A stretch of 64,000 nucleotides of DNA from Allobosea sp. (GTDB lineage Bacteria > Pseudomonadota > Alphaproteobacteria > Rhizobiales > Beijerinckiaceae): contig NZ_JAFKFW010000029.1 in NCBI RefSeq assembly GCF_017308015.1, positions 1 through 64,000 on the forward strand, in the 5' to 3' direction. The notes beneath the pieces were generated by a model. The model worked only from the letters and a program-made list of their open reading frames with translations, ran no database searches and was not told the DNA's origin. Shown here piece by piece: positions 5,355-35,551 of this stretch. A program made the position numbers and the translations under genes. Numbering within the stretch: the first letter of the stretch is position 1; every line of letters starts with the position of its first letter.

Positions 5355-5377
5355 TTCCCCAACTTATTCCCCAACTT
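5355..5377 (+). repeat. Left pair of arm-type repeats (TTCCCCAACTT x2)
   Basis: Two exact copies of TTCCCCAACTT begin at 5355 and 5367, a 12-bp pitch, 55 bp inside the attL core. The same paired pattern is found next to the integrase at 35529-35551, and inverted at 16482-16504. Their position fits arm-type integrase binding sites. Confidence 0.7.
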
Positions 5378-5444
5378 GCGCCGAGAGAGTGGACGGAAGT
5401 CCATAAACGCTGACGTAGCCAATCGCACTGGGCGCGTGCCTTCC

Positions 5445-7013
5445 TCAATGCGAGGACGGAGGAGTTTCCCGATGGGCGTGCGCTACCATCACCGCCCACC
5501 AGTCCCCCACGACATCGGGAATCCGATCTGTGAACGGATATGGCCGGGCTTCTGGGAGTTCAGGGTGAAGCTTGTTGTGGACGCGCTCCAACATCCAGCC
5601 GCGATGCTCGTCATCCGTGCCTCGAACAACCGCTTCGAAAAAGCTGTCCTCGGTCGCTGAGGCAAAAGTCTTCTCCAGGTCGTCAATATGGCAGAAACGC
5701 ACCGCGATCTGGTCAGCGTCTGTGATTTCCGGATCGCTTTCGCGAGCTATGGATTTGGCGCGGCTGAGTACCTCATCGATGATGGGGCCGCCCATAGAAA
5801 GCCAAGTGTCTAGCGTCACGACGATGCCGCGCACGTCGCTGGCGAATTCGACGGGTGGAAGAATGCCCCTTCGGCGGTGTGAGACGTAACGCCAGATCTG
5901 AAAGGCGCCTTTGGCCATCTCGTCATATCCACGGGCGGCTGCGCTGATCGGATCATCGCCAAAGCGAGCGCTGAAAGACATTCGCCTAGCCTTGCATTCG
6001 AGGACGACGGCCATCCCCCCGCGGCGTGAAATCAGGACGTCAGGCGTATCGAAGTGGCGCTTGCCCTGCTTGTATTTGAAGCTCGGCGAGATTTGGGACG
6101 ATGGGAGAACGGCACGGAGAAAATCGACGCAGTACGTTTCAAACCTCGCCGCAATCTCGTTTTTCACCGGATCCGGTCCGTCAATAACATCGTAGAAGAC
6201 ACCGCCTGCCGCCCTTAGGCTTATGAGTTCTGGAAGAGGGCAAACGGCAGCCTCCCCGAACACAATTAGGGGCGTTGAGCGGAGAATACTTGGTTTGTAG
6301 GCGGTCTGGCCCGGTACAGTGCGGATCCGTGCGGCCTCACGCCGCGCATCTTGGTGCGTGCAGCTGATATGTTTAATGACGGCGACCGAAAGTTCCGATG
6401 GAATGCTCACTCCCGTAAAGTCGAAATCGAGCCTGACGTTTGGGCGTTCGTTAAAAGCAGCGCGGAGCGCAAAGCAAGCATGGGAGTATTCTGAGAGGGA
6501 AAAGCCGTTCTTGGCCTGAAAATAGGCAGTTGTCAGAGGTCCGCCATAGAGGAAGCCAGAGCGATAGAGCTGCTGGAACGATAAAAATCCACGCTGCCAC
6601 TCGAACTGACGCTGACTTAAGCGATGCAGCTCATATAGAATCCCGACATTTCGGCGCGCGATGCCATCTTCGGCATTCTCTAACTCATTCACCAAATTGC
6701 GGGCTCTTCCCATTGCCGAAAATGCGCGACAGTTCAGGGTTTTAGTTTTGGTGCGAAGCCTGGGCGTTTCCTTCGGAACTACGAGCAGCTCGTTTGCAAG
6801 GGTTTCGATCAGCCAGGGATAGATCGCCAGTCGGTTGGTCAGGTCGGAATTGGCGGCCTCTTCGGGAAACTCCAAATGCTTCGCGGCTGCTCTGACGTTG
6901 CCTGTCTGCAGCGTCCGCGTGGCCCAGCACATTATCAAGAACGCGGCATCATCGGCGCGCGACAACAGCTCATCCAGTTTCCGCCGGTAGAGTTCCTTTT
7001 TCTGTCGGCTCAT
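5445..7013 (-). CDS. Putative PD-(D/E)xK nuclease, defence-associated
   Basis: 522 aa protein that I do not recognise by name. The C-terminal half carries a PD-(D/E)xK nuclease signature: PD at 324-325, then a hydrophobic strand ending in ECK at 339-341 (VVLECKARR), with a preceding helix containing E287/E292. The first roughly 280 residues are mostly helical with many Arg residues and could hold a DNA- or protein-binding region. The gene is the last of the leftward operon and follows the methyltransferase-Mrr gene with a 120-bp gap, so a joint role in restriction is likely but inferred. A weak AGGGCGA site precedes ATG 7013. Its codon use looks less GC-rich than the chromosome. Confidence 0.7.
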   Translation of the reverse strand: MSRQKKELYRRKLDELLSRADDAAFLIMCWATRTLQTGNVRAAAKHLEFPEEAANSDLTNRLAIYPWLIETLANELLVVPKETPRLRTKTKTLNCRAFSAMGRARNLVNELENAEDGIARRNVGILYELHRLSQRQFEWQRGFLSFQQLYRSGFLYGGPLTTAYFQAKNGFSLSEYSHACFALRAAFNERPNVRLDFDFTGVSIPSELSVAVIKHISCTHQDARREAARIRTVPGQTAYKPSILRSTPLIVFGEAAVCPLPELISLRAAGGVFYDVIDGPDPVKNEIAARFETYCVDFLRAVLPSSQISPSFKYKQGKRHFDTPDVLISRRGGMAVVLECKARRMSFSARFGDDPISAAARGYDEMAKGAFQIWRYVSHRRRGILPPVEFASDVRGIVVTLDTWLSMGGPIIDEVLSRAKSIARESDPEITDADQIAVRFCHIDDLEKTFASATEDSFFEAVVRGTDDEHRGWMLERVHNKLHPELPEARPYPFTDRIPDVVGDWWAVMVAHAHRETPPSSH

Positions 7014-7133
7014 CGAATCGCCCTAGTGAGAGCGATCAATCTACGCTCTCACCACTCTCCTTGAAGGTTCAAATGCTGCTCCTCTTTGGCGGCGTAAGCC
7101 GGACCTCACCAACGAGATTGGGCCGAGGCAAGC

Positions 7134-8876
7134 CTAGCGGTGCCTTCTGGCCTTCTTCTCGACCTGGTTCACCAACAGAGGCTCGTCCAAGGGTAAGGGT
7201 TGCTGGTCTCGGGTCGGCTTGCCCCCGGTAATTGGCATTGGCGGCAACGGTGGCTCCCTGCGCAACTCCTCTGGCGTAGGCTTGCGAGCCGGCCTCTTAC
7301 GCTGAACGGCGCGGGCCTCTTGTGTGGCCCGTACAGTGTTGAGTTCGGTTAGAATGCCCAGATTCGGACCCGTGATTAGATCCTTCACAGTCACGATCTG
7401 GATTCTCGGGCGCTCTCCGCCTGGGAGCTCGATTCGTCCTCCCAACGCGGCCTCAGTCCGCATATCAGGCGTCGGGTCGTTCACGCAGATGAACACGCCC
7501 ATGTCCGCGCCTTCGCGCTGAACAACACTCTTGAGAACCCTAATAGCGTCCGGCCCAACATGCCGGCCGCCTTTGACCGACACGATTGCGTGTCCGTAGC
7601 GCCCCGGTCCAGAGATGAAGGAGATTTCGCCGTCGATGCCCTTGTCGGGGCCGCGTCCCTTCGCCTGGCCGCCAATGCGACCAACTGCCCATTCCTGGAA
7701 GGTGTACGGCTGGAGCTCTGCCAATTTGCGAGCCGCGAATTCGTCTTTAGGTATTCCCTCGACGACATATTTCGTGGTGGGAAGCCAGGTTTTTATCCGA
7801 TCCTCAATGACTTGGATCGCAAGATAGGTGATATCGATACCGACCCACGACCTGCCCAGCCGTTCCGCAGCGTGAACAGCAGTCCCGCAACCGCAAAACG
7901 GGTCGAGCACGACATCTCCGGGCTTGCTGGAAGCCAAAATTATTCGCTCCAGCAGAGCCAGCGGCTTCTGCGTGGGATAGCCAATGCGCTCTTCCGCTTG
8001 CGAGTTCAGAGGAGGAATGTCTCCCCAAAAGCTACCAACAGGCGCGCCTTTATCTTGGTCAGGCCGTAGCTTTCTTCTCGGCGCTCCCGATTTCGACCAC
8101 GCGAGATTCCCAGCCGCGTCGATCGCACGAAGCTTTTCGATATTGACCCTCCACCCATAAGGCGGAGGCGTGTAGCCCTTGTATTCATAGACCAGATTCG
8201 GGCGGGGACCCATGCTCGCCGAACAGATAATGGGGCCATCGGCATAGCGGCCGTGTTCATCTTCTCGGTCGTACTTTTCGATCAGCTCTTCCTCAGACAG
8301 AGGGCGCCGTATCGCGTCGTCATAGAATGGCGCTTCGCTTGATCGGGCATAATACAGTATCGTATCAGTGCTGGGGCTGAATTTCTTGATCGAGTGCTGG
8401 GAGCCTTTCGGGTTTCTGGAACGAAGCCATACAATTTCATTTCTGAAATTTGCGGCCCCGAAAATGGCGTCCATTACGGCTTTCAGATAATGACTGGCGG
8501 TCGGGTCGCAGTGGAGATATATGCTTCCGGTTGACTTAAGGACCCGCTTTAGTTCGATAAGTCTGACTGTCATCATGGCTAAATATGCCATGAGGTCGCT
8601 TTGCCCTAGAAAGCCCTGCAAAGCCTGAAGCACTCGAAAGATGGCGACGTCAGATCGCCTGACTGCTTCCATAGCAGCTTCGGCCCCGTCCTCCCACCGC
8701 CATGTATCCTCGAAAGCTTTCTTTTGAGCATCTGCACCAACGGGTGACTTGTACAGAATGTTGTATGTTGCCTTCGAATTGAAGGGAGGGTCGAGGTAGA
8801 CGAGGTCTACGCTCTCATCCTTGATTTTGCCGCCCCGCAGCCATTCCAAATTGTCGCCGAAGAACAGTCGGTTCAT
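7134..8876 (-). CDS. DNA methyltransferase (beta class) fused to Mrr-like endonuclease domain
   Basis: 580 aa. The catalytic DPPF lies at 29-32 and the AdoMet-binding DPFCGCG at 325-331, with the target-recognition region between them. That order defines a beta-class N6-adenine or N4-cytosine methyltransferase (N6_N4_Mtase family). After about residue 390 comes a second domain, TFQEWAVGRIGG, then a GPDKGIDG turn (D411, D415) and IVSVKGG (K435), the layout of Mrr-type PD-(D/E)xK endonuclease domains attached to some methylases. The last 70 residues are Pro/Arg-rich. One chain may thus both modify and cut DNA. The next gene downstream encodes another nuclease. Start ATG 8876 follows a GGCGGGG stretch. 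Confidence 0.88.
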   Translation of the reverse strand: MNRLFFGDNLEWLRGGKIKDESVDLVYLDPPFNSKATYNILYKSPVGADAQKKAFEDTWRWEDGAEAAMEAVRRSDVAIFRVLQALQGFLGQSDLMAYLAMMTVRLIELKRVLKSTGSIYLHCDPTASHYLKAVMDAIFGAANFRNEIVWLRSRNPKGSQHSIKKFSPSTDTILYYARSSEAPFYDDAIRRPLSEEELIEKYDREDEHGRYADGPIICSASMGPRPNLVYEYKGYTPPPYGWRVNIEKLRAIDAAGNLAWSKSGAPRRKLRPDQDKGAPVGSFWGDIPPLNSQAEERIGYPTQKPLALLERIILASSKPGDVVLDPFCGCGTAVHAAERLGRSWVGIDITYLAIQVIEDRIKTWLPTTKYVVEGIPKDEFAARKLAELQPYTFQEWAVGRIGGQAKGRGPDKGIDGEISFISGPGRYGHAIVSVKGGRHVGPDAIRVLKSVVQREGADMGVFICVNDPTPDMRTEAALGGRIELPGGERPRIQIVTVKDLITGPNLGILTELNTVRATQEARAVQRKRPARKPTPEELRREPPLPPMPITGGKPTRDQQPLPLDEPLLVNQVEKKARRHR

Positions 8877-10206: not shown

Positions 10207-10243
10207 ACGAGAGCACTCCTCTGGAAAGGGAGGGGTTGCGGGG

Positions 10244-14347: not shown

Positions 14348-14860
14348 TCACGCTTCGTCTTCGAAGTCCATTTTTCTCTGAGGGTCTTCGGGTGGATAGG
14401 GCAATTCATCGATCTTGATGATTTCGATCTTGGTTCCCCGTAGATAACCGCCCAACCCGTCATCGTCGGTACAGACGGCACGAGCACGCCAAATCTTCGC
14501 CGTCGCGGCTATCATCGCGTCGTACTTCATCGCCACCTTCCAGCCCGCCGGACGGTTGGCTTCAGGCATTCGATCGAGCGCGCGTCGGATCATTTCGCCC
14601 GCCTCGATGGCAACGATCTGGTCGAACGGTTGCACGATAAAAGAGCGGTTGCGCTGGAGTAAGGCGACGATTTCCTCCACGCGATCGATGCGGCCTGCCA
14701 CAATCTCCGCAACGACGGGTGCAGGGATGACGATTTCTTCTTTCGTCCGTGCAAGCTCTTGGGTGAAGAACTCGACCCGCTCCTTGCCTCTATCGAGATG
14801 GGGCATAGCCCCTTGGGGATCGAGGAGCAGGATTAGGAAATTCGCGTCGACGACAATCAT
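14348..14860 (-). CDS. PIN-domain protein (VapC-like)
   Basis: 170 aa. The four acidic residues of the PIN RNase fold are visible: D5 in IVVDANFLI, E52 in PAPVVAEIVAG, D114 in MKYDAMIAATAK and D132-D134 in CTDDDGL. PIN toxins cut RNA using bound Mg2+. It starts inside the last codons of the upstream gene (4-bp overlap), the usual arrangement for an antitoxin-toxin pair, but that partner is far larger than a VapB. The last 25 residues are acidic and Pro-rich. Confidence 0.8.
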   Translation of the reverse strand: MIVVDANFLILLLDPQGAMPHLDRGKERVEFFTQELARTKEEIVIPAPVVAEIVAGRIDRVEEIVALLQRNRSFIVQPFDQIVAIEAGEMIRRALDRMPEANRPAGWKVAMKYDAMIAATAKIWRARAVCTDDDGLGGYLRGTKIEIIKIDELPYPPEDPQRKMDFEDEA

Positions 14861-15573
14861 GCCCGGCGCAGATCCCGGATGGCTTTCACCGCCTGGCTGG
14901 CGCTTCCCTCTGGGAGCATCTGCCCGGCTTTTCGCAAGACCTCGCCGATCGGCTCATCTTCAAGGGGCTCGAAAGAGGAGACGTCGAGCAACTCCAGATC
15001 CCATTGACCTTCCGAATTGCGCCGCCACTTTCCGCTGCCGGAGAGGCGAACGTGCGTGTGGAAGTATGTTGCCATTTCCTTCGCCAAATCCGCCTTCACG
15101 ACAATGCGGCCCGCAATGTCGCTGCCATCCTCGATGCCAACGCCTACTAGGTCGCCATTGCCTTCAAGGCGAACGAGCCGGCCTTGTAGCGATGTCGGCT
15201 GACGCAGCGGGCCGATGGGCTTGGCCGGCGGAGTGGTACCTGGAAACGGAATAACCCTGCTGCCGGGCAGCGTGAGCGCCGCTACCGTCTTGTCCTTTCC
15301 CAGCATCTCATTGAGGCGGGCATAAGCTGCTCTTGCTTCCTTTCCGCCTTCTCCTGTCGCGGCCGATCGAACGCGCGGGCTAACGACGGGCAAAGCTTCC
15401 TGATCGACCTTCGCGACAAGGCGCACACTGCCCTTTTCGACGCCACCGAAATGGACACCATCCTTCGACCCGAGAAGCTGGGCAAAGCCGAGCAAATATT
15501 CGGCGATGCGCTCCATCGGCAGAGTTTCGGGGGTATACCCCTCAATTCGGAATTCGAACTCGGCGGCGGACAT
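14857..15573 (-). CDS. Unknown 238-aa partner of the PIN protein
   Basis: ATG 15573 with AAGGGG upstream; a longer frame upstream lacks a site. I do not recognise a named family. Visible: an N-terminal helix (PMERIAEYLLGFAQLLGS), the turn GVHFGGVEKGSVRLVAKV, a charged helix, then a beta-rich segment (LVRLEGNGDLVGVGIEDG, ADLAKEMATYFHTHVRLSGSGKW) that could be an OB- or SH3-like nucleic-acid-binding fold. The 4-bp overlap with the PIN gene means the two are made together. It could act as antitoxin, RNA-binding guide or sensor. Confidence 0.65.
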   Translation of the reverse strand: MSAAEFEFRIEGYTPETLPMERIAEYLLGFAQLLGSKDGVHFGGVEKGSVRLVAKVDQEALPVVSPRVRSAATGEGGKEARAAYARLNEMLGKDKTVAALTLPGSRVIPFPGTTPPAKPIGPLRQPTSLQGRLVRLEGNGDLVGVGIEDGSDIAGRIVVKADLAKEMATYFHTHVRLSGSGKWRRNSEGQWDLELLDVSSFEPLEDEPIGEVLRKAGQMLPEGSASQAVKAIRDLRRA

Positions 15574-15715
15574 CCCTGCCCCTTGGGGAGTGCTGCGGCG
15601 ATACACCATGAACGCTGTCACTTAAGCAAGCGTTGCGCCCGAAGGGTGACAGGATTGAGTCGCGCGTCGGGTGCGATCAAATTCGTTCGCCTCAGAAGGG
15701 CAATGAGGCCACTCG

Positions 15716-16387
15716 ATGATGCGAACGCCCGTCGAACCGGTATTCGTCGACAGAAAGACAGCCGCGGCTAGGCTGATGATCAGCGTCGATACCTTCGACA
15801 CATGGTTGCGCGCTGGCTTCATCCCGGGACCGCATATCGAGCGCGGTCAGATTGTTCGCTGGCATTGGCCGAGCCTAGAGCGCCACCTGATAAATGATGG
15901 GCCGAGTCATGAACCCGATCCGTTTCTTGAAGGGGTGAAGAACCTCAAGAAGAAACGCGATCTACCCGCAGGCCGCGTTGAGCCTAGCAGATGGCCTCTG
16001 CCGTCTAGCGCAGGTGACCACCTGGACCGGTGGTATTCGAAGCTTGGCTTCGATCCTCATACGATGACGGACGCCGACATGGAGCGTCTGCAGGAAGAGG
16101 CATTCGACCGCTGGAAGTCCGAATTCATTTTCACGCGACTGGGAAAGCGTGAGCGCGACGTACTTCGACAATTTCAGGGCATTCAACCCGGAAGTCTGGT
16201 CCGGCCTGCTGGGATCAAGGGCCTTGGGGTAGATACCGAACAGCGCCTTGAAGCGCGTGGGTTCATTGCCACTCGCTATCGCGACAATGACGCAAATCTC
16301 TTGGAGGGCTGGGAGCTGACCGAGGCGGGCAACCAAGCAGTTCAGGCCGTCTTGGCTGGTCAAGAACCCGATCGGCCGGCGCGGTAA
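15716..16387 (+). CDS. HTH_17/excisionase-like regulator
   Basis: 223 aa. Residues 8-58 (VFVDRKTAAARLMISVDTFD, then WLRAGFIPGPHIERGQIVRW and HWPSLERHLI) form a MerR/AlpA-like winged helix as in excisionases. The rest is a less conserved domain with charged helices (LGKRERDVLRQF) and a C-terminal half that resembles a second winged helix (LVRPAGIKGLGVDTEQRLEARGFI). It is transcribed divergently from the PIN module and lies 95 bp before the central repeat pair, which makes it a candidate binder of those repeats. Confidence 0.65.
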   Translation: MMRTPVEPVFVDRKTAAARLMISVDTFDTWLRAGFIPGPHIERGQIVRWHWPSLERHLINDGPSHEPDPFLEGVKNLKKKRDLPAGRVEPSRWPLPSSAGDHLDRWYSKLGFDPHTMTDADMERLQEEAFDRWKSEFIFTRLGKRERDVLRQFQGIQPGSLVRPAGIKGLGVDTEQRLEARGFIATRYRDNDANLLEGWELTEAGNQAVQAVLAGQEPDRPAR

Positions 16388-16706
16388 GAATCCAGCCTCA
16401 CTAGCACCAGGGTTCTCGCGTTGCCTGCCTTCGCTGGCAGCCGTCGCAATAGGCATGTGCCGACGGGGCAGCCTTCTCCCAAAGTTGGGGAATCTGTTGG
16501 GGATCGAGCAGGTCACTCGCATTGGGTCTGAACTTTATCAATATCTTGTGCTCTATCTGGCGCGGATGACCTCTCCGCGTAACTGCGGCTTGCTCTACGT
16601 GGTTGGACGGGCGCAGACGGAAGTTGACGTATCTAACAGTATGATTTCATTGTGAAAATTTCATTTCGAGGGTATTTTGGCGCGGTCCGCATCAGGGTCA
16701 TGAGCC
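16388..16706 (+). promoter_or_regulatory. 319-bp gap with central repeat pair, upstream of the virion-protein operon
   Basis: No convincing gene. It contains an inverted-orientation copy of the element's end repeats: AAGTTGGGGAA at 16482-16492 and CTGTTGGGGAT at 16494-16504, again with 12-bp pitch. The last 80 bp are AT-rich and could contain the promoter for the plus-strand operon that starts at 16707. Confidence 0.55.
16482..16504 (-). repeat. Central pair of arm-type repeats
   Basis: The exact 11-mer AAGTTGGGGAA is the reverse complement of TTCCCCAACTT, followed 12 bp later by a degenerate copy GTTGGGGAT. The same two-site layout, including the GGGGAT second copy, is found just upstream of the integrase start. 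It could be an operator, or an internal att arm left from an older fusion. Confidence 0.65.
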
Positions 16707-16889
16707 ATGTATCCCGAGCTAGTCCAGATGAAAGCAGAGAGGGGCTTTGCTGAAGCGGTCGCGAAAGCGGCCGAGCGTCAACGCGTAAGCGCCAGCGAGT
16801 TCATGCGGCAGACGCTCCGCAAGGCCATCGAGGCTAACGGCGTCGACCTGCCGCCCTATCCGAAACTCCGGTTCGGTCGGAAAGCGTAA
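16707..16889 (+). CDS. Small ribbon-helix-helix-like protein
   Basis: 60 aa. The helix pair EAVAKAAERQRVSASEFMRQ then TLRKAIEANG has the spacing of Arc/MetJ-type DNA-binding proteins. Its stop TAA overlaps the next start (TAATG), so it is coupled with the GNAT gene. Confidence 0.6.
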   Translation: MYPELVQMKAERGFAEAVAKAAERQRVSASEFMRQTLRKAIEANGVDLPPYPKLRFGRKA

Positions 16890-17407: not shown

Positions 17408-20035
17408 ATGGCTGACACGTTCACCTGGGGCGAGGGCGGGCAAAAGCTCTCTTCGACCGACCTCAAGCGCCGCATGGCGTACTCTTTGATGAAGGAAGGC
17501 ACGAGCACGGCGCCCGTCCAGCACTGGTTGCAGGGCGTTGACCGCGTGGCCAAGGCCCTCATCGGCGGCTGGGAAATGAGCGAGCTCGATAAGGCTGAGA
17601 AAGCTAATCAGGCGCTCCAGGCCAAGGACGATGCCATTCTCAACGGAGGAGGCGGCGCCTTCAGCCTGGGAGGCACGCCCGCCACGACCGCGACCGCAAG
17701 CCTAGCGCCTACCGCGACGGACGGGGACACCGGCAGCGCGCTCCCCGCCTCGCTCAACACGACCGAGAGCGGCGGCAACTGGCAGGCTCAGAACAGTGCG
17801 GTAGGCGCTGGGGGCATGACCGGACATTTCGGCCGTGCGCAGTTCGGTCAGGCGCGGTTGCAGGAAGCCGCCGCCGCTGGAGCTATTCCCCAGGGCACGA
17901 CGCCGCAGATGTTCATGAAGTCACCGGAGCTGCAAAAAGCGGCGGAGAACTGGCACTTCGGCGATATCGATCAGAACATTCGCGCCAACGGGTTCGATCG
18001 CATGATCGGCCAGAGCATCAACGGCGTGCCCATTACGATGGGCGGCATGCGGGCCGTGGCGCACCTCGGCGGCAATCGCGGTCTCCAGCGCTTCATCGAG
18101 ACGGGCGGGCGATACAACCCGGCCGACGCCAACGGCACGTCGCTGATGGATTATTTCACCACGCACGGCGGCAAAATGCGGACGGCCGAGGCTGACATGC
18201 CGGCGCCGGGCGCGGTGCCTGTTCAGGGCAGTGGCGGCGCTGAGGGATTCTTCATCCCGCCCGGTCAAAGCGACCTGCCGGCGATGCAACCGAATGGGGC
18301 TTTCCCCAACTTCGACCCGGCGACGGGGCGTTGGCTGGGGTCGAGCCCGTCCGCCCCCGCGTCGGCGGCCATCCAGCCCGATCCGCCGCAGCCCTCTGTC
18401 GCGGCCCCGGAGGCCCAGCCTGCGCCTCAGCCGCTCAACCCTGTCTTTATGAGCGAAGGCGTCGATCAGCCGTGGATGAACAGCACGTTCACGCCCTCCG
18501 CCAATCCGCGCGAGGCGATTGCCCGCGCCCTTGCCAAGACGCAAACCCTTCCTCCGTCGCGCCCGGCCGATCTTGCGATGCCGCAGGCTGACTTGCCCGC
18601 ACCTGGCGCCGTCCAGGCGATGGGGCAAGTTCCAGTTAGCCAGCCGGCGCCGCAGCCGTCCTATGGCGAGATCGATCCAAACAGCCCGGATGGCGGAGCA
18701 CGGATCGGGATGCTTGCCAGCGAGGAAGCCCGGCTCGGCCTTCCCTCTGGCGCCGGCATCATGTCCCCGTCCGAGGGCATGAAAGCCGTTGCGGCAGCAC
18801 TGATGCAGAGCCGGGCCGGCCGTGATCCGCTCTCCACTGCCAGCACGCCAATCCAGCGCGTCGCGGCGGCGCTCATGCCTGCCACGTTTTCGCCGGGAGC
18901 GTCGGCCGCTCCGACGCAGACGGGCAGCGGCACGGCGCCGCAAGCGGCATGGAGTTCCCAGCCCCAGACGCAGGGCGCGAGCCCCTTGGCAAATGGTCCG
19001 GTTCCGGTCCCGCAAGCCGCTGATCCGGGCACGCCCCAGCGCCAAGCCCAGATTGGGGCAGCCATGCGAACGCTCAACAACCCGAACGCCACGGCCGGTT
19101 CCAAGCTCATCGCGCAGCAGGTCATCCAGCAGGCTTTCCGGGGCCGCGAGCTTGAGACTGTCAACCGTCCTGACGGCAGCGTGTGGCACGTTCCGAAGAA
19201 CGGCCAGGGCTCGCCCGTCCAGATCTTCGGGCCGCAGAACAAGCCGGAGGATCGAACCGGCGACATGAAGGAATACGATATCTACGTGGCGCAGGAGAAA
19301 GCCGCAGGGCGGACGCCTGGCGACTTCACGACTTGGATGCGCGGCAACAAGTCGTCGGGAGCGACGCAGCTCAACATCGATACGAAGGGCTCGCAGGCTT
19401 TCGCCACGAAGGCGAACGAGTATCAGGCGAAGCGCTACTTCGACATGGCCACGTCGGCAGACGAAGCGGTCGTGCTGCGCAGCGATGTCGAGACGCTTTC
19501 CGGCCTCTTGAGCGGTATCCAGACCGGGCGCGGAACGGAAGCCCGTCTCGGCCTCGCTCAGATGGCGAAAGGCGTCGGGCTCGATGCCGTGGCAGACAAG
19601 CTGACCGGCGGCAAGATGGACGAGATGGAAGCGGCTTTGTCCATCATGGACAAACTCACGCCCCGGATGCGCGTCCCCGGTTCGGGCGCGACTTCCGACA
19701 TGGAGATGCGGACCTTCCGCAATGCCCTGCCGAGCCTACTCAAGCAGCCGGGCGGCAACGCCATCGTGTCGGATACATATCGCGGCATGCTCGACTATCA
19801 GGCCCAAGCTGGCGACATCGCCCGCCAAGCCTTGCGTGGCGAAATCAGCCAAGCGGACGCGGACAAGGCACTGAAGGAGCTGCCCAGCCCGTTCCAGCGC
19901 CTCAAGGATTACCAGAAGGCGCAGAAGGAAGGTGCGAGCGGAGCGGCGGCCCCGCAACAGCCTGCGCCAGAAGCCCGGAAGTCGGTAGGCGGCAAGAGCT
20001 ATGTCAAGCGCGGCGCCGAATGGTTTGAGGAGTGA
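17408..20035 (+). CDS. Internal virion/ejection protein with transglycosylase-like domain
   Basis: 875 aa. Residues about 115-245 contain a lysozyme/transglycosylase-like core: NTTESGGNW with E120 as candidate catalytic acid, then GHFGRAQFG, and later GGMRAVAHLGG. Residues about 250-560 are a Pro/Ala/Gln-rich low-complexity linker. The C-terminal 230 residues are helical (QAFATKANEYQAKRYFD; MRVPGSGATSDMEMRTFRN) and match a domain seen in phage DNA-ejection or internal virion proteins. In podoviruses such proteins leave the capsid first, open the cell wall and help DNA entry. No capsid genes accompany it here. Confidence 0.75.
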   Translation: MADTFTWGEGGQKLSSTDLKRRMAYSLMKEGTSTAPVQHWLQGVDRVAKALIGGWEMSELDKAEKANQALQAKDDAILNGGGGAFSLGGTPATTATASLAPTATDGDTGSALPASLNTTESGGNWQAQNSAVGAGGMTGHFGRAQFGQARLQEAAAAGAIPQGTTPQMFMKSPELQKAAENWHFGDIDQNIRANGFDRMIGQSINGVPITMGGMRAVAHLGGNRGLQRFIETGGRYNPADANGTSLMDYFTTHGGKMRTAEADMPAPGAVPVQGSGGAEGFFIPPGQSDLPAMQPNGAFPNFDPATGRWLGSSPSAPASAAIQPDPPQPSVAAPEAQPAPQPLNPVFMSEGVDQPWMNSTFTPSANPREAIARALAKTQTLPPSRPADLAMPQADLPAPGAVQAMGQVPVSQPAPQPSYGEIDPNSPDGGARIGMLASEEARLGLPSGAGIMSPSEGMKAVAAALMQSRAGRDPLSTASTPIQRVAAALMPATFSPGASAAPTQTGSGTAPQAAWSSQPQTQGASPLANGPVPVPQAADPGTPQRQAQIGAAMRTLNNPNATAGSKLIAQQVIQQAFRGRELETVNRPDGSVWHVPKNGQGSPVQIFGPQNKPEDRTGDMKEYDIYVAQEKAAGRTPGDFTTWMRGNKSSGATQLNIDTKGSQAFATKANEYQAKRYFDMATSADEAVVLRSDVETLSGLLSGIQTGRGTEARLGLAQMAKGVGLDAVADKLTGGKMDEMEAALSIMDKLTPRMRVPGSGATSDMEMRTFRNALPSLLKQPGGNAIVSDTYRGMLDYQAQAGDIARQALRGEISQADADKALKELPSPFQRLKDYQKAQKEGASGAAAPQQPAPEARKSVGGKSYVKRGAEWFEE

Positions 20036-20040
20036 CGGGT

Positions 20041-22077
20041 ATGGCGAACAAGGTCACAGACCCGGCGCTCCTGCGCGCTCTCGAATCTCCCGACACGCCC
20101 AGCCTGCCGATCGAGACGAGCGGGCGCAAGGTGACAGATCCGGCTTTGCTCGCTGAGCTGGAGGGCGCTGCTCCAGCGGCGCCGGCCCAGATGGTCCCGG
20201 AATACGACGCCATGGGCAACCCGACTGGCGGCATGGTCGCGGCTCCTGCACCCGTGACGATGGGCTACGGCGAGCAGATGGGGAAGATTGGCAGCCTCGT
20301 GGACAAGGGCGTCCGCATGGCGGCCAACGGCCTCACCTTTGGCATGGCCGATCGGTTCGCGGGCGGCATGGATGCCCTCACCGGACAGGCGCCCAGCTAT
20401 AGCTCTGGCGTCGATGCGCAGCATGTGCGTACCCAAGCAATCCGTGATGAGGCGCCAATCCTTGCCGGCATCGCAGAGGCAGCGGGCGGCCTCACGGGTG
20501 GCGTCGGGCTCATCAAGAACGGCGTCACGCTGGCCGGGCGCGTTGGCTCCGGTCTCATGCCCCGGATCGCGGCTTTCGGCGCGGAAGGCGGGCTCTATGG
20601 CGCTGCCGCTGGCGCGGGCAACACGTACACCGGCAACGCTCAGGATTACGTCGACAACGGGTGGAGTGGGGCGAAGACTGGCGCGCTGATCGGCGGCGCT
20701 CTGCCGGCAGTCGGCTCGGCATCGTCGTCGGTCTACAAAATCGCTCGGGCTCTCGCGGGGCAGAATGTCGAAGGCGTTGGACGAGCCGGATCAGCCGCCT
20801 TGCGGGCCGCGGCGAGCGCGGATGAGGCGGGCTTGCGCAACCTACCGAACCTCGGAGCGGAAGCCATGCTCCCTGACGCGGGACCCTCGATGCTCGGCAT
20901 TGCCCAGGGCGCGGCGACGGGCAATGGCCCGGGCAAAACGGCTCTCGTCAATGCGCTCCGCGAGCGCGATGCTGGCACGGCTGGCCGGTTGGCGAGCGTC
21001 GTGGATGATGCTCTCGGCCCTGCGCCTATCCCGTCGCAGGTCGACGCTGCAATTCGGGCCAATCAGCGGGCCTTGAGCCCCGTCTACAATGAGGCATTCC
21101 GGGACGCCCGCGCCGTCGACACTCGCCCCATCGCGGAGCATATCGAGGCGCTGATTCCTGACAGCCGTGGCCCCGTCCGCTCTGCGCTGGAGCAAGTCCG
21201 GTCGGATCTCAACATTCCGGGCAATCCGGCAAACCTCGAAGTCAATCCGCGTGCCCTGCTCAGCGTCCGCCAGTCGATCGACGACGCACTGGAGAGCGCT
21301 CCGCGCAACGTCCAGTCTGCGCTTGGCGACATTCGGCGCCGGATCGATACCGAGCTGACGGCGAAGATTCCGGGGATCAAGGCGGCCGATGCGCAGTATG
21401 CCGAACTTGCTCGGCAGCGCGAAGCTCTGGAGATGGGGCAAACCATCTTCGATACCGGGCGTGGAACCGTCATTCGTCCAATTGAGCTGGCGGAAACCCT
21501 TCGCAACGGTGGCCTCCCCCAAGGCCAGATGGTCGGACCTTCGGCGGCGCCCGTCATGGTCCGTCAAGGCGCTCGCGCGGAACTGGACAGGGTCGTCGGG
21601 ACCAACATCAACGACCTGAATGCGCTGGAGCGCACCTTCGCCACGCCTCGCGACTGGAACAACGTCAAGAGTAGGCTCACCTGGGGCGATGACGCGGTGG
21701 ATCGCGTGACGGATGCGCTGCGCACCAATCGGACCTTCCGGGATTCGATGCAGCGGATCGTGGACGGGTCGCGCACGGCTCCGACATCGGCCGCGGCGAA
21801 ATCGTTGGAGGCCGGCGACGGACCTCGCACGGATATGACCATGACCGGACTCGCCTCAGCAGGTGTTCGCGCGGTTTCGCGGGCGCTGATGGGTGCCAGC
21901 TCTCAAACCACGAAAGATCAGGTGGCGAGGCTAATGGCGAACCCTGCTTACGAGCGAATCGCCACGGCACTGCTTGAGGGAGCTCAGCGGACAAACGAAC
22001 GGGCGGCGGCTCTCAGTCGTGCCTTGTCCCAGCCTGCGTATCTCGGCGCTTCTTCGCCTGCCAGCGGTCGTAGATGA
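20041..22077 (+). CDS. Second ejection/internal-virion-like protein
   Basis: 678 aa from ATG 20041 behind GAGGAG; a GTG three codons earlier is possible. The N-terminus has two copies of a short motif, KVTDPALLRALE (residues 4-15) and KVTDPALLAELE (30-41). A Gly/Ala-rich, partly hydrophobic region follows (about 80-250), then a long helical part with many Arg (AIRANQRALSPVYNEAFRDA; AQYAELARQREALEMGQTIF). Large helical proteins with glycine-rich membrane-active stretches behind a transglycosylase gene are typical podovirus ejection proteins. Exact role inferred. Confidence 0.7.
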   Translation: MANKVTDPALLRALESPDTPSLPIETSGRKVTDPALLAELEGAAPAAPAQMVPEYDAMGNPTGGMVAAPAPVTMGYGEQMGKIGSLVDKGVRMAANGLTFGMADRFAGGMDALTGQAPSYSSGVDAQHVRTQAIRDEAPILAGIAEAAGGLTGGVGLIKNGVTLAGRVGSGLMPRIAAFGAEGGLYGAAAGAGNTYTGNAQDYVDNGWSGAKTGALIGGALPAVGSASSSVYKIARALAGQNVEGVGRAGSAALRAAASADEAGLRNLPNLGAEAMLPDAGPSMLGIAQGAATGNGPGKTALVNALRERDAGTAGRLASVVDDALGPAPIPSQVDAAIRANQRALSPVYNEAFRDARAVDTRPIAEHIEALIPDSRGPVRSALEQVRSDLNIPGNPANLEVNPRALLSVRQSIDDALESAPRNVQSALGDIRRRIDTELTAKIPGIKAADAQYAELARQREALEMGQTIFDTGRGTVIRPIELAETLRNGGLPQGQMVGPSAAPVMVRQGARAELDRVVGTNINDLNALERTFATPRDWNNVKSRLTWGDDAVDRVTDALRTNRTFRDSMQRIVDGSRTAPTSAAAKSLEAGDGPRTDMTMTGLASAGVRAVSRALMGASSQTTKDQVARLMANPAYERIATALLEGAQRTNERAAALSRALSQPAYLGASSPASGRR

Positions 22078-22216
22078 AGCCGTAGGCCAGGAGCAGACCG
22101 AAGCCGAGAAAGAACGCTGAGTTGGAATTGTCGAATAGCCCAATCCACCTATGGACCAGCCACGTTGTGACCAGTCCCAGCACCGTAACGGCGACGAATT
22201 GAAGGGCAGGGCTCAT
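22013..22216 (-). CDS. Small two-helix membrane protein on the opposite strand
   Basis: 67 aa, two clear membrane helices (LQFVAVTVLGLVTTWLVHRW and SAFFLGFGLLLAYGFIYDRW) with a short loop and a basic tail (QAKKRRDTQAG). Its 3' part overlaps the end of the ejection gene by 65 bp. No good Shine-Dalgarno site is seen, which lowers confidence. The size and shape would fit a holin-like or superinfection-exclusion protein, but that is a guess. Confidence 0.45.
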   Translation of the reverse strand: MSPALQFVAVTVLGLVTTWLVHRWIGLFDNSNSAFFLGFGLLLAYGFIYDRWQAKKRRDTQAGTRHD

Positions 22217-22862
22217 GCAGGCGGAAGATGCGGGACAGTCGGCGGAACGTCAACGACCCGACCAGGTGGCATGGGATTATATCGACCAGCGCCTGGATGG
22301 GGTCTCGGCTCGGGTTGATCGCATCACACTCGCGGCCCATGAGGCGGGGCATGCCGTGGTCGGTTACTATGTCGGCAACCGCGTCCCCGCCGACTGCGAA
22401 GTCTGGATCAATGCACGAGGTAAGGGCGAGGCGACGCTTCGCGGCGGCACTCCCTGGGCGAAGGTCGTCGCAGCCTTGGCCGGTGACGCGGCCGTTGCGG
22501 TCCTCATACCTGATTCCTCGCTCTTCGCCGGCTCTATCGGGGAGGAGGAACTTCGAACGCGGGCAGACAGCACCATCCGCGAGCATAGCCGCTGGCAGGA
22601 GCAAGGCGGCGAGAGCCAGGCCGAGGACGATGAAGACATTGCCCTTGCTCTCATCGTTCAAACCCTTCCGTGGGCGGAATGCGCAGCGGTGATGGCGATG
22701 TTTCGAGATGCGGAGGCTGAAGCTTTGCGAATTGCGAGGATTCCAGCTGTCCGAAATGCAATCGAGACGGTCATGCTCGCCCTGCTTCATCATGAACGGC
22801 TGACGGGCGCGGACGTGGAAAGGCTCATTGTCAGCGCGGGCGAAGGCGGCAGGATCCAATGA
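22215..22862 (+). CDS. HExxH protein, M41 (FtsH protease)-like
   Basis: 215 aa. The segment ITLAAHEAGHAVVGYYVG puts H42-E43-x-x-H46 in the context typical of the FtsH peptidase family M41 (HEAGHA), followed by a VWINARGKGEATLRGG strand and VVAALAGDAAVAVL, which match the helices of the M41 fold. There is no AAA+ ATPase or membrane helix. It overlaps the DUF5681 gene by 4 bp. Likely a small zinc peptidase, or an inactive relative; the third zinc ligand (an Asp in M41) cannot be assigned with certainty. Confidence 0.75.
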   Translation: MQAEDAGQSAERQRPDQVAWDYIDQRLDGVSARVDRITLAAHEAGHAVVGYYVGNRVPADCEVWINARGKGEATLRGGTPWAKVVAALAGDAAVAVLIPDSSLFAGSIGEEELRTRADSTIREHSRWQEQGGESQAEDDEDIALALIVQTLPWAECAAVMAMFRDAEAEALRIARIPAVRNAIETVMLALLHHERLTGADVERLIVSAGEGGRIQ

Positions 22863-23302
22863 AGGCTGCCGCTGAAAATGCAGCGCCGAAGCAGCGCGGG
22901 ACACCTTTCAAGCCTGGGCAGTCCGGCAACCCGGCCGGGAAGCCAAAAGGCGCGCGCAACAAGACGACGCTCGCCATGGAGGCCATCATGGAAGCGGATG
23001 CGGAAGCCATGACGCGCAAGCTCGTCGAACTGGCGAATGCCGGCGATATGACCGCAATGCGCATCTGCATGGATAGGCTCTATCCCGCCCGGCGCGACCG
23101 CGCGGTGACATTCGACCTGCCCAAGATCGAGACGGCGGCGGACCTAACGAAGGCGACGCAAGCTATCATGGAGGCCGTCGCGACTGGAGACTTGACGCCG
23201 CTGGAGGCTGATGCGGTGAGCCGCACGGTGGAAGCGCATGTGAAGGCGATCGAGGTGACGGATCTCATGCGCCGGCTTGAAGCGCTGGAGGGCAAGCCGT
23301 GA
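22859..23302 (+). CDS. DUF5681 domain protein
   Basis: 147 aa. Residues 11-35 hold the DUF5681 signature RGTPFKPGQSGNPAGKPKGA with RNK following. The remainder is helical (MEAIMEADAEAMTRKLVELA; DRLYPARRDRAVTFDLP). Proteins of this family commonly precede the terminase gene in alphaproteobacterial prophages and may act as small-terminase-like DNA-binding proteins; no terminase follows here. Start overlaps the M41-like gene (ATGA). Confidence 0.85.
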   Translation: MKAAAENAAPKQRGTPFKPGQSGNPAGKPKGARNKTTLAMEAIMEADAEAMTRKLVELANAGDMTAMRICMDRLYPARRDRAVTFDLPKIETAADLTKATQAIMEAVATGDLTPLEADAVSRTVEAHVKAIEVTDLMRRLEALEGKP

Positions 23303-25293: not shown

Positions 25294-26153
25294 CAGCCAT
25301 TCTCCCGAAGCAGTTCCTTGATCTGATCGACAAATGGTCTGCAAGTAACGACAATCTCTCGGCTACGGTTTCCATAAAACGCATAAGGCCGATTGCAATC
25401 GAGTGAGACAAATGCCCGCACCCGTGGACCCTCGGGGGTGCTCACTTCGACAGGGATAAAAAACAGCGAACTGTACGAGACCTTTGACTGGGTCGGACTA
25501 GGTGTCCCCCGATCGATGGCGCCGAGCCTATGGACCACGCGCGGCTCTGCTCCAGCCATGCAAGCATGGTGCCCTAAGAGATTCGAGCCGTCAAATTCGC
25601 GACCGATAGGTCTCTCGTTGCCCGGATTCCGATGACGGATGGTCATTTTGGTTTGGCTACTGCCGACGTATTCAACCAGCGAGACCGATATCTCCCCCTT
25701 CCCAACCTTCGTGATCTGCCGCGCGTGGATTTCCAGAATGCCGAGACAGGCTCGGATGGCCTCGGCTCGCTTTCCACGCGGAACGGCCCCTGATTTCACC
25801 GCGGATATCAGGTCACCAAATCGCACAATTGCGTCGGATTGCGTGAGGTCGGATCCTTTTCTCTCTGAGAGCGCCTTTAGGCTCCAGAGAGTAGCGCTGC
25901 CAACAAAGAGCACTGGCGCTGAGATTGCAGCGATCTGGAGCGGGACTGCGCCGGCGAAATAACCAACGACCGGAGCGGCGGCGGCCCAGCTATGCTGCCC
26001 GAACCAATAAAGCAGCGGTAACGGCCTAAATCGCCTAGGGACGCGGTTATAGAAAATGCCCTCGGCCGCCATAAAGTAGCGGCGCGGTTTCGAATACTCG
26101 TCCCCAAGCCATTGATTGATGCGACTTTGGATTTTTTCGGCCGACTCAGGCAC
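25293..26153 (-). CDS. Two-helix membrane protein with GAF-like cytoplasmic domain
   Basis: 286 aa, GTG start at 26153 behind a strong GGGGGAA site. Two membrane helices at about 53-95 (AAAAPVVGYFAGAVPLQIAA; SAPVLFVGSATLWSLKAL), then a helix (IRACLGILEIHARQITK) and a GAF-like alpha/beta domain: ISVSLVEYVGSSQTKMTI, LFFIPVEV, AFVSLDCN and a closing helix VDQIKELL. GAF domains bind small ligands such as cyclic nucleotides. Membrane anchor plus ligand-sensing domain plus small coupled partner looks like a signal-responsive effector, but no known system name can be given. Confidence 0.6.
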   Translation of the reverse strand: MPESAEKIQSRINQWLGDEYSKPRRYFMAAEGIFYNRVPRRFRPLPLLYWFGQHSWAAAAPVVGYFAGAVPLQIAAISAPVLFVGSATLWSLKALSERKGSDLTQSDAIVRFGDLISAVKSGAVPRGKRAEAIRACLGILEIHARQITKVGKGEISVSLVEYVGSSQTKMTIRHRNPGNERPIGREFDGSNLLGHHACMAGAEPRVVHRLGAIDRGTPSPTQSKVSYSSLFFIPVEVSTPEGPRVRAFVSLDCNRPYAFYGNRSREIVVTCRPFVDQIKELLRENG

Positions 26154-29126: not shown

Positions 29127-31283
29127 TCATGATTTTCCCTCTGGTCCGACGATGATGAAATCGCGCGGATCGCGGTTCTTGTCGGGGCGCCGCTCCTTTG
29201 CGAGCGCACCGTTGTCCAGCCAGATTTTCAGGATGCGCTTGGCCTGCTCCTTGCCGCCCTTCGTATCCGTATCGAGGCCCAGGACTTCGCCAATCGCGTA
29301 GCCGATCCAGTGCGCCGCCTGACTGTCCGCCCGATAGGTTGGATCAGCCTTCACCATGGCGATGACGCGCTCGCAGTCGGCCGCCGTCACGTGTTCGAGC
29401 ACGCCGGGCATTACCCACGCAGTCGCCACGCCAATGTTGTCCTCCGGCTCGAAACCGCGGCCATTGCCCAGGCCGACACTCTCCATGCGAAACCAGCTCG
29501 CGCTTTCCATCGGCGGAGCCATGTTGGCTTTGCCGTCGTCCACCCGGAAATGAAGCCGGCGCTTCTCGGGCTCGACGCCAGCCCGCTCTGCCTCATCCTT
29601 CGACATGGCGTTGAGGACGCGGGCGCTGCGGACCGCGCCAATCAGAGACGAGCCGCCGCGCGCGTCTTCGACCGAATAGCCCTCCGGCCCGCTCGCGGTT
29701 TTGCGGACGTGGTGAACCAGCTCGATCGCGCAGTTGCATCGCTCCGCAATGCCGGCCCATGTCTTGGCCACCCGATCAATCGCGCCGTTGTCGTTCTCAG
29801 GGACGCCGTGCGAGGCGACGAAGGGATCGATGACGAGCAAATCAATCCGGTTTTCGCGGATAGCTTGCTCCACGCCCTCCACGGTCGGGACCGCGACGCT
29901 CACCCTGCCGCCCGCCGCCATCTCAACCAACCGGATAGGCAGGTCGCGCCCGCTGTCGACAAAGAGCCGATCGGTCATGTCCGCCGCCGTCACCTCATAG
30001 TGAAGGCAGGCAGCGGCAATCCTCCGGTCTAGTTCGTCGCGTGGATCCTCACCGTTCCAGAGCCAGACGCGCAGCGGATCGCGAACGCGGATGCCCAGCA
30101 GGTCACGAGCCGTCACCATGGACAAGGCTTCCACGATGGAGAGCGAGGATTTGCCGAGGCCGCCCGGCGCAACCGTTGTGCTGACGAATCGGCGTACGTA
30201 GTGGCGTCCGTAGAGCCACTGTCGCGTGGGAATAGTGCGAGGGTCCATCAGGACGAATGGCGTCGCTTTGATGCCGGGATTTCCGGCTTCAATCGACGCA
30301 TCCAAGTCTGGAGCCGTTCCGAACTCGCGAACTTCCAGCACGTCAGCATGGTCGCTCTCGCGCTTCTGCCAGGCGTCGTTGGCATCCTTCCCCATGCCGG
30401 CCTTGGGGAGGGCGATGAAAACCTCGCGCTCTGCCTCACGCCACGCGCATCCAACCTGCCGGATCGCCTTGGCGCTGGCGCCGCCGTCGTGCTCGCCCAG
30501 GATGGTCAAGCTATCGACGCCATGCAGGACCGGCAGCTTGGCAATGCCGCCGGCCGTCCCCATCGCCCAGGCGGGGGCATAGCCCATCATGAGGCCCGAC
30601 AAGGCGCTCTCAATACCCTCGCCGACTGTCAGCGCGCCCCGCTCCGCGTCCAGCTCGCCGAGCATGATGGCCGAACCGTCCGCCGGCCCCAGCATCTTTC
30701 GATCGAGCTTGCGGCCGTCTTCCGTCAACGCCGTGCGGTGGATAGCAACGATGGCGCCCGTCTCGATCGAGCGCATCGCCGCCACCATGCAGGGCAGGCG
30801 AACGCCCGGCCCGAACGGGCAAGCTGGATGAAAGCGGATCGTGGACATGGCGACGCCATCGGGAAGCTCCAGCCGACGCGAGGCCAGATAGGTTTCCACG
30901 ATGGTCCCGCGCGGGTCGACAGCCTCCGCCCATAGCTTCAAGGCGGAAGCTTGCCGGTTGTCGACGGGCTGGGATTGCGGCCCATTGCCGTTGTGATGCC
31001 CATTCGCTTTGCTGGCGCGGGCCTGCATGCGGTCGATGGCTTGGGCTGCCCCATCGGCATCGCCGCGCTCTGGCTGCCAGACGATGCCAAGCCGCTGCTC
31101 GACATACGCCTTGCACTTCATCGCGTCGTCGCCGGCATGACTATGGACGATGAGGTTGCCGCCCTCGCCAATCTTCACGGCCATACTGCGGTCGTGTGGC
31201 CGATGGCCGGGGCCGGGAGCCATGACCTGTCCGCTGGAAACGACGCCGCCAAGCGCTTTCGCAATCGCGTTGAGAGACATCAT
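29127..31283 (-). CDS. TOPRIM-RepA primase-helicase
   Basis: 718 aa. The N-terminal half is a DUF7146/TOPRIM-type primase: RFHPACPFGPG, then LTVGEGIESALSG (TOPRIM Glu) and SLTILGEHDGG (DxD-like). The C-terminal half is a RecA/RepA-like ATPase with Walker A in VAPGGLGKSSLSI, a strand WLWNGEDPRDELDRR, Walker B LLVIDPFVASHG and sensor HHVRKT. Such fusions prime and unwind DNA for plasmids, prophages and satellites. No CHC2 zinc finger is seen at the N-terminus. It overlaps the upstream gene by 4 bp, and a repeat-rich putative origin follows. Confidence 0.9.
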   Translation of the reverse strand: MMSLNAIAKALGGVVSSGQVMAPGPGHRPHDRSMAVKIGEGGNLIVHSHAGDDAMKCKAYVEQRLGIVWQPERGDADGAAQAIDRMQARASKANGHHNGNGPQSQPVDNRQASALKLWAEAVDPRGTIVETYLASRRLELPDGVAMSTIRFHPACPFGPGVRLPCMVAAMRSIETGAIVAIHRTALTEDGRKLDRKMLGPADGSAIMLGELDAERGALTVGEGIESALSGLMMGYAPAWAMGTAGGIAKLPVLHGVDSLTILGEHDGGASAKAIRQVGCAWREAEREVFIALPKAGMGKDANDAWQKRESDHADVLEVREFGTAPDLDASIEAGNPGIKATPFVLMDPRTIPTRQWLYGRHYVRRFVSTTVAPGGLGKSSLSIVEALSMVTARDLLGIRVRDPLRVWLWNGEDPRDELDRRIAAACLHYEVTAADMTDRLFVDSGRDLPIRLVEMAAGGRVSVAVPTVEGVEQAIRENRIDLLVIDPFVASHGVPENDNGAIDRVAKTWAGIAERCNCAIELVHHVRKTASGPEGYSVEDARGGSSLIGAVRSARVLNAMSKDEAERAGVEPEKRRLHFRVDDGKANMAPPMESASWFRMESVGLGNGRGFEPEDNIGVATAWVMPGVLEHVTAADCERVIAMVKADPTYRADSQAAHWIGYAIGEVLGLDTDTKGGKEQAKRILKIWLDNGALAKERRPDKNRDPRDFIIVGPEGKS

Positions 31284-33074: not shown

Positions 33075-33079
33075 GGTGC

Positions 33080-33289
33080 TTACGCAGCCTCCTTCATCGT
33101 CGGGAGGGAGCGGAGCCAGGCTTCCAGATCGGCAGCGAGAATGAGCGTGCGACGCCCGAGCTTGCGGGCGGACAGGCGACCCGCGTTGAGCTCTTGATAG
33201 ATCGTGTTGACGCCCGTCGCAGCGGCTCGCGCGGCCTCTTGTGGCGAGTACGCGAGTGGCTTGGTGGGGCTTTCAGTCCTCTGATGCAT
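33080..33289 (-). CDS. AlpA/excisionase-like HTH protein
   Basis: 69 aa. LAYSPQEAARAAATGVNTIY then QELNAGRLSARKLGRRTLIL and ADLEAWLRSLP is the helix-turn-helix_17 (MerR-like winged helix) of excisionases and AlpA. It heads the replication operon and lies 2 kb from the integrase. Likely regulates excision and possibly transcription of the operon or of int. The upstream gap has a cluster of GGTAA/TTACC inverted repeats. Confidence 0.85.
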   Translation of the reverse strand: MHQRTESPTKPLAYSPQEAARAAATGVNTIYQELNAGRLSARKLGRRTLILAADLEAWLRSLPTMKEAA

Positions 33290-33394
33290 TGAGCGACCCT
33301 TTCGCAGCAGGCAAAGCGCCTGGGAAAGGATGGTCGCAGACGCAGAGCTTACCCGCGACGACGAGGAATTCGAAGAAAACCTTGATTTTTCAAA

Positions 33395-34198: not shown

Positions 34199-34294
34199 TA
34201 TCGCAGCACCGCGAACACCGAAGTGGAGGACAGGGAAACCGAGCGGTGCTTCTCGGCTTATCGGCTGGCCGGCCTATCCCTGCCCAACTGTGCC

Positions 34295-35524
34295 CTATCC
34301 GGCTTTTGCCCGGATTGGCGTGACGTTTTCGCCCTTGGTCTTCGGCGTTCCGACGAATCCCGCCCAAGCGTCCATCAGTTTCTTGCGCTTCAGCAGCGCA
34401 TCGCTCCGGCGGTATGCGCGCTCGGTCTCGTCTCCAATCACGTGCGCTAGGGCTGCCTCGGCAACCTCTCGGGGGAAGGAAGTGCACTCTCCCGCCCAAT
34501 CGCGGAAGCTCGATCGGAAGCCGTGAGGTGTGAACTGTTCCCTGTCCATGCGACGCAGCAGCATGAGCATTGCGTGCGAGGACAACGGCCGACCCTTTCG
34601 GGCGCCTGCGAAGACGTACTCGCCCAGCGATTTGCTGGGTTCAACACTTTCGAGAATGGCGATGGCTCGATCCGTCAGCGGTACGCGGTGAGGTCGGCCG
34701 GCTTTCATCCGTTCAGCCGGCACCGTCCAAACCTTCGCTTTCAAATCGATTTCGGTCCATTCCGCGCCAATTACCTCACCCGATCGGCTCGCGCACAAAA
34801 TCAGGAACTCCATTGCCTTCGCCGCCGTCGCGTCGCGCTTGCGAAGCTCAGCGATGAAATCGGGGACGTCGGCATAGGGCATGGCTGGATGATGCCCGCG
34901 CTGAAGTTTCTGCTTGCGTGGCAATAGGTGATCGAGGTGGCCGCGCCAGCGGGCTGGATTCTCGCCGGTGCGATGGCCTTTCGCTTTGGCGGCATCCAGA
35001 ACGCGCTCAATCCGCCCGCGGAGCCGAGACGCCGTTTCCTGCTTCATGGTCCATATCGGCTTCAGCACGCCCAAGACCTGCTCGGTTCCGACTTTGTCGA
35101 TGGGGATGGGCCTTAACGACGCCCCATGCGTCTTGAGTGTGGTCGACCATTGCGCCTGATGCTTCGCGTTGCGGAAGCCGACCTTGATATCTTCCACCAA
35201 ATCGTCAGCGAATTTGCCGAAAGTCGGGACTGCCTCAGGCTCCGTCTGGGAAGCTGCTTCGCGCTTAGCTTCGATCGGATTGATCCCGGCTTTCACCTGC
35301 TTGCGGGCTTCCGCAGCTTTGTCGCGCGCATCAGCGAGAGAGACAGTCGAGACGCCTCCGAGGCCTAGCTCCTTCAGCTTGCCTTGCCAGCGAAACAGGA
35401 ACAGCCAGCTCTTGGCGCCGGCCGCATTGATCGTGAGATAGAGGCCTTCGCCATCGTTGTGGCGCCCGGGCTTCGTGAGCGTTGTGACGGCTCTTGCAGA
35501 GAGGCGCTTTAGAGGGCGGCCCAT
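34295..35524 (-). CDS. int: P4-type tyrosine integrase
   Basis: 409 aa from ATG 35524 (MGRPLKRLSARAV); a TTG eight codons upstream is less likely. Residues 1-90 are the arm-binding DUF4102 domain (DGEGLYLTINAAGAKSWLFL; RWQGKLKELGLGG). The catalytic residues of tyrosine recombinases are visible: R247 in CASRSGEVIG, H334-x-x-R337 in HGFRSSFRDWAG, H361 in ALAHV and the nucleophile Y371 in AYRRSD. It inserts and excises the element at the tRNA-Ser 3' end. The start region overlaps a pair of GTTGGGGA repeats, so the protein may bind next to and repress its own gene. Confidence 0.95.
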   Translation of the reverse strand: MGRPLKRLSARAVTTLTKPGRHNDGEGLYLTINAAGAKSWLFLFRWQGKLKELGLGGVSTVSLADARDKAAEARKQVKAGINPIEAKREAASQTEPEAVPTFGKFADDLVEDIKVGFRNAKHQAQWSTTLKTHGASLRPIPIDKVGTEQVLGVLKPIWTMKQETASRLRGRIERVLDAAKAKGHRTGENPARWRGHLDHLLPRKQKLQRGHHPAMPYADVPDFIAELRKRDATAAKAMEFLILCASRSGEVIGAEWTEIDLKAKVWTVPAERMKAGRPHRVPLTDRAIAILESVEPSKSLGEYVFAGARKGRPLSSHAMLMLLRRMDREQFTPHGFRSSFRDWAGECTSFPREVAEAALAHVIGDETERAYRRSDALLKRKKLMDAWAGFVGTPKTKGENVTPIRAKAG

Positions 35525-35528
35525 GGCA

Positions 35529-35551
35529 ATCCCCAACTCTTTCCCCAACTT
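35529..35551 (+). repeat. Right pair of arm-type repeats
   Basis: ATCCCCAACTC at 35529 and TTCCCCAACTT at 35541, 12-bp pitch, directly upstream of int and 119 bp inside attR. Matches the left pair 5355-5377 in strand and spacing. Confidence 0.7.

Follow-up and report, generated by a model that had tools for sequence, protein, structure and literature searches.

Across 64,000 nucleotides of an Allobosea sp. contig (NZ_JAFKFW010000029.1; this whole stretch is hereafter the window), a short G-rich motif occurs as a pair at each end of a genomic island and once more, inverted, in its interior. The locus thus raises the question of what the end pairs do, and of how a third one came to lie more than 10 kb from either end.

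An island at a tRNA-Ser gene with paired repeats

The island, of about 30.4 kb, begins at the 3' end of a tRNA-Ser(CGA) gene, where the core starts at 5286, and ends with a 15-nt core repeat (35670-35684). The layout is that of integration at a tRNA 3' end, with a direct core repeat whose left copy lies at the tRNA-Ser 3' end (Table 1). The integrase has three domains (PF13356, PF22022 and PF00589), all of which exceed their cut-offs and identify it as P4-type, and its named relatives, with 63-69% identity, come from Methylobacterium and Ancylobacter. At the tRNA end, the gene at 7134-8876 encodes a DNA methyltransferase joined in one protein to an Mrr/NA-iREase-like nuclease domain, which is cargo of a restriction-modification-like kind; the methyltransferase was the only match when ten island proteins were examined with PADLOC. 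Virion- and replication-like genes (endolysin-like domain, DUF5681, primase/helicase-like) at 17408-23302 and 29127-31283 suggest a phage-derived or satellite-like island, and for the 681-aa protein no homologs were found in viral contigs or phage records.

Table 1. Coordinates of the island features in the window
Feature	Coordinates	Strand	Description
tRNA-Ser(CGA)	5210..5299	+	ARAGORN; 3' end 5286-5299 = left att core
IHF-like box, left P' arm	5311..5323	-	TTTCAACTACTTA, 1 mismatch, offset 33 from pair
Left pair, P' (tRNA-side) arm sites	5355..5377	-	57 nt from tRNA end / left core
Possible cargo by internal site	14348..16387		PIN-domain protein 14348-14860 (-); unknown 14857-15621 (-); unknown 15716-16387 (+)
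Internal pair, inverted relative to end pairs	16482..16504	+	Pitch 12 bp
IHF consensus box, internal site	16536..16548	+	TATCAATATCTTG, exact, offset 33 from internal pair
Degenerate core-like stretch	16558..16571	+	TGGCGCGGATGACC, 55 nt from pair; weak; outside model match
HTH_17 protein, excisionase-like	33080..33289	-	Domain match
P4-type tyrosine integrase (int)	34295..35524	-	Arm-binding, central and catalytic domains; reads inward from right end
Right pair, P (int-side) arm sites	35529..35551	-	Immediately before int ATG; 120 nt from right core
Right att core	35670..35684	+	15-nt direct repeat CTCCCTGTCCGCCAC, copies at 5286 and 35670

The original prediction had placed three pairs with 12-bp spacing in the island, two of them just inside the att cores, and all three were recovered where it put them, with a pitch of 12 bp throughout and the end pairs at the short distances from the cores given in Table 1. 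The motif TTCCCCAACTT is exact at 5355 and 5367 (+), 35541 (+) and 16482 (-), with ATCCCCAACTC at 35529 and CTGTTGGGGAT at 16494 as pair partners. GTTGGGGN5GTTGGGG had three matches in the window, compared to a mean of 0.00 in 100 dinucleotide shuffles. The stricter pattern TCCCCAACNNNTTCCCCAAC had three matches in the whole 4.89-Mb genome, which are these same three pairs, the backwards pattern had none, and no match to the strict pair was found across the other 66 genus genomes searched. A genome scan had been proposed as a check on whether the paired motif is frequent outside the element; it is not, all genome matches lying in the island. A single unpaired exact copy of TTCCCCAACTT at 18302-18312 (+), inside an 875-aa frame (17408-20035), is probably due to chance.

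End pairs keep constant spacing and orientation across the genus

The looser pattern GTTGGGG-N5-GTTGGGG gave 30 matches in 19 of the 67 genus genomes, compared to six for the reversed pattern. Sixteen of these (the window's and 15 others) point at a tRNA gene (tRNA-Ser, -Ala or -Arg), at a distance of 56-59 nt from its 3' end, and six stand just before an integrase start, as P arms. The distance from core to P pair was 119-120 nt in all five int-side matches measured; around the sixth (L077) a core repeat of 13 nt or more was not found. One further match is the window's internal site, three (L064, L069 and L083) stand at the P' distance from a core-like end that has no tRNA gene, one (L067) has its core-like stretch too close to the pair, and L073, L074 and L076 had nothing recognisable around the pair. 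Both end arms share the same orientation in 11 of the 11 elements with both ends seen. Arm-type sites on the P and P' arms predict such constant spacing and like-oriented end arms, and across related elements the motif was observed to recur on both arms, its distance from the core being constant.

Some of these loci have a composite structure. Elements are stacked at one core in L158:7630-7860, where a P' arm and core are followed by the next element's P arm and integrase. After the P'-spaced site of L083 there likewise come a P arm and integrase that belong to a neighbouring element, and behind the core of L069 there is a different repeat of 12-bp pitch (TGCTACACAATT, in two copies), then an open frame.

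The pitch itself is also conserved. Within the 90 nt before the starts of related integrases, a lag-12 self-match (7 of 8 positions) was detected in 34 of 47 cases, which are akin and therefore not independent trials, and among which overlapping genomes may bring repeats (G043, G039d, L021, L022, L024 and L027 were left out of the set). Other lags from 8 to 24 were found in at most 4 of the 47 each, except for lag 10 (14/47), at which some elements have a third motif copy. The letters of the motif vary (GTTGGGG, GGTGGGG, GTTAGGG, GTGGGA and others) and the pitch remains constant.

With the consensus WATCAANNNNTTR, as given in PMC7581858, an IHF-type box was found to start 33/34 nt after the pair in 8 of 19 P' arms when at most one mismatch was allowed (shuffle mean 0.03), and in 10 of 19 when up to two were (shuffle mean 0.26). 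A putative IHF site thus occupies a set place between arm sites and core, as expected of lambda-like arms, and IHF may bind the P' arms at these boxes.

The constant distances to core and integrase start in relatives back the earlier proposal that the pairs are arm sites of the P4-type integrase, as far as the end pairs are concerned, which very probably serve the island's own enzyme as arm-type sites. The N-terminal domain of Int would grip the P' and P arm pairs, its catalytic domain would meanwhile act on the tRNA-Ser core, and IHF would bend the P' arm between pair and core. Int bound at the P pair, directly ahead of its own start codon, could in addition repress int.

The internal pair resembles an inverted P' half-site

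A P' model was built from 19 P' arms, including the window's left arm and no internal site. It ranked the internal site second in the window (14.1 bits, E 0.0029), above the int-side pair (11.3 bits), with a match that spans positions 3-66 of 90 and ends before the core; a profile of 22 arms gave the same site an E of only 0.11. The spacer that follows the internal pair is weakly P'-like (p 0.011-0.024 for the whole or its core-side part; p 0.18 for the first 30 nt). Outside the pair, the spacer was no more similar to the P' arm of the window itself than expected by chance (p 0.74), and as an int-side (P) arm the internal pair was rejected, its flanks being unlike (p 0.60-0.98).

The internal site does carry an IHF box at the P' offset. 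This box, TATCAATATCTTG, is the sole exact IHF consensus on the + strand of the window (the - strand has one, at 26105), and when the internal spacer was shuffled an exact box appeared at offset 33/34 in 12 of 200000 trials. With its pair and an exact IHF box at the P' offset, the internal site is thus closer in appearance to an inverted P' half-site than to a P arm or an operator. The same two features make it very unlikely that G-rich DNA produced the pair by chance, the expected mean in the window being 0.00. Its letters are indeed G-rich, and beyond the genus the loose pair does not much exceed its control, with 41 matches (three of them the window's) in 35 of 397 genomes of the order compared to 26 for the reversed pattern; because of this closeness, the order-wide count is not used here as support.

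In the place of the core lies TGGCGCGGATG, a degenerate stretch 55 nt from the pair, compared to 56-59 nt for the other P' arms, and its longest uninterrupted sharing with the tRNA core at the expected end is 5 nt (TGGCG). No tRNA 3' end could be assigned to it, since near-copies of TGGCGCGGATGACC are too common (127+145 at two mismatches or fewer; 33+38 for the reversed sequence). A 10-nt match between internal position 16574 and attR at 35660 was discarded too, being in the wrong order relative to the pair and within chance.

A search for remnants of a second integrase by tblastn of 12 integrases against the window produced only background outside int (best E 0.036, at 18510). With no accepted integrase match near the internal site and no second P arm, a complete second element was not found. 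No homologs of 16400-16720 were detected in plasmids, nor of the cargo genes at 14348-16387 in the 44 related loci compared; the 14.3-16.4 kb gene block may have arrived with the internal half-site.

Two options had been put forward for this pair, namely an operator shared by int and the virion-protein operon, or the old end of a second element. An operator, at which Int or an HTH protein would control the virion-type operon starting at 16707, could draw on the position of the pair within the intergenic region 16388-16706, upstream of that operon and next to a small protein gene of unknown family (15716-16387), and on the regulatory role that promoter-overlapping arm sites do have in KplE1 (PMC2951348). 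This option is nevertheless unlikely: the pair resembles the tRNA-side P' arm and not the arm at the int promoter, an operator needs no IHF box at the P' offset, and the site ends 203 bp before the first start codon. A promoter scan found no sigma-70-like match before the 16707 operon and none at int either, and so decides nothing. The second option fits better, in part: one end is present, and the core is degenerate, with neither a second integrase nor a second P arm.

A comparable internal site in another element

With the 22-arm profile, 28 of 29 element stretches were scanned (G043 was left out because its stretch did not reach int; in the joined stretch of G020 one base is doubled at the seam). 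Eleven of the 28 showed both the int end and a P' arm at the far end, the rest having other arm motifs or being incomplete. Among these 11 complete elements, an inverted internal P' match was present in two, the window's and that of genome G014, and absent from nine. The G014 site (588561-588645) matched with an E of 5.3e-5 by the profile and 7.6e-5 in the genome search, and the two integrases are 63% identical.

The internal site of G014 lies after the virion-type genes and that of the window before them, which is a further point against an operator. It adjoins DNA that is 94% identical to another place in the same genome, with a tRNA-Gly gene about 2.3 kb off, and a further P' match lies just beyond the int end of the element, as from a neighbouring element. 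In the window and G014 alike, genes common to relatives flank the internal site on both sides. Given the differing gene position and the shared genes on both sides, the internal site is neither a fixed landmark nor a simple divide between two elements.

The recurrence of the layout in G014, together with a pair and IHF box that are intact in letters and spacing, could also be taken to mean that the internal site is a working half-site which Int uses inside the island, for cargo inversion or capture or for its own titration. The degenerate core, with only TGGCG shared, and the nine complete elements without such a site make this very unlikely for the window. As a general proposition, it is likewise scarcely probable that inverted internal P' half-sites are functional in some islands, Int and IHF joining them to the tRNA-side arm to invert or capture cargo, or the sites titrating Int; if true, the integrase would act inside the island as well as at its ends.

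P' arms are found without a nearby related integrase

Matches to the P' model at E ≤ 0.01, some of them to the pair or core alone, were obtained in 43 of the 67 genus genomes. A tRNA gene was present at the match in 28 of 30 fetched loci (one per genome), an association that is partly circular because the model contains the tRNA 3' end and 16 of the 30 loci were in its alignment; for the loci outside the alignment the figure was 12 of 14. At E ≤ 9.0e-5, 12 of 62 P' matches had a related integrase from the list no more than 80 kb away on the same strand and the other 50 had none, a count that sets 62 matches against 32 integrase matches, with weaker integrase matches left out, and that may be inflated by contig ends and by the tRNA 3' end inside the model. 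For ten of these sites no family integrase was found in the 20-40 kb on the inner side, and the search recovered three of three positive controls. Pfam searches of 20 ORFs beside orphan P' arms gave 16 metabolic, transport, regulatory or DUF proteins, four without a match, and no recombinase.

Examples come from G037, G001, G016, G063 and G038 (loci L237-L250), where P' arms with pair and spacing intact lie at tRNA genes and the adjoining 20-40 kb showed no related integrase; in G037 there are five model matches and no integrase match at E ≤ 0.001. The window's own genome holds a decayed P'-like stretch (E 0.00235) by a tRNA-Ser(TGA) gene (G000:C14:7057-7141; L255:1058-1142).

P' arms thus seem often to outlive their integrases, and on that ground the internal site is most simply read as a scar. 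It would be what survives at the tRNA side of another integration, the integrase end having been lost, and no working part of the present island. Since no second integrase, P arm or clear core accompanies it and the whole-module match is weak, we infer this history; taken by itself, the internal half-site is probably a scar. The whole explanation, with the end pairs as arm-type sites for the P4-type integrase of the island and the internal pair as the scar half-site of another integration, is in our judgement likely, on the comparison of related sequences presented here.

Discussion

The end pairs can be set beside two characterized systems. In the attP of IntS from ICEMlSymR7A of Mesorhizobium, five TGKTGGTATC motifs within 283 bp were shown to be needed for integration (PMC11963761). 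The likeness lies in an alphaproteobacterial tyrosine integrase with several short TGG-rich arm-type motifs and an attP of a few hundred bp; unlike those five motifs, the island has two pairs of predicted arm sites at a fixed 12-bp pitch and one pair far inside. In KplE1 the arm sites of IntS overlap the intS promoter, and the control of int was measured (PMC2951348). There, as in the island, arm sites lie between the att core and the int gene, a position from which the integrase can regulate its own expression; the motif differs, however, and the autoregulation measured in KplE1 is for the island a prediction.

For the internal site, a parallel is offered by the composite genomic island CGI48 (PMC8978831), which has GI21 inside it, both still able to excise. 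An island inside an island likewise leaves parts of attachment sites within the larger one, although in the present case a single inverted half-site is recognisable, in contrast to two islands that excise. No description of the arm sites reported here was found in the literature searched, most subscription journals lying outside that search.

The end pairs are ordinary, and the stray internal pair is a modest curiosity. That the pitch stays at 12 bp while the letters change limits, in a way that can be tested, the modes in which P4-type integrases may bind their arms. The spacing of pair, IHF box and core is a precise signature of the tRNA-side island end, and as it finds ends without a nearby related integrase, it allows both the borders of islands and fossil integrations to be mapped where no integrase gene is available.
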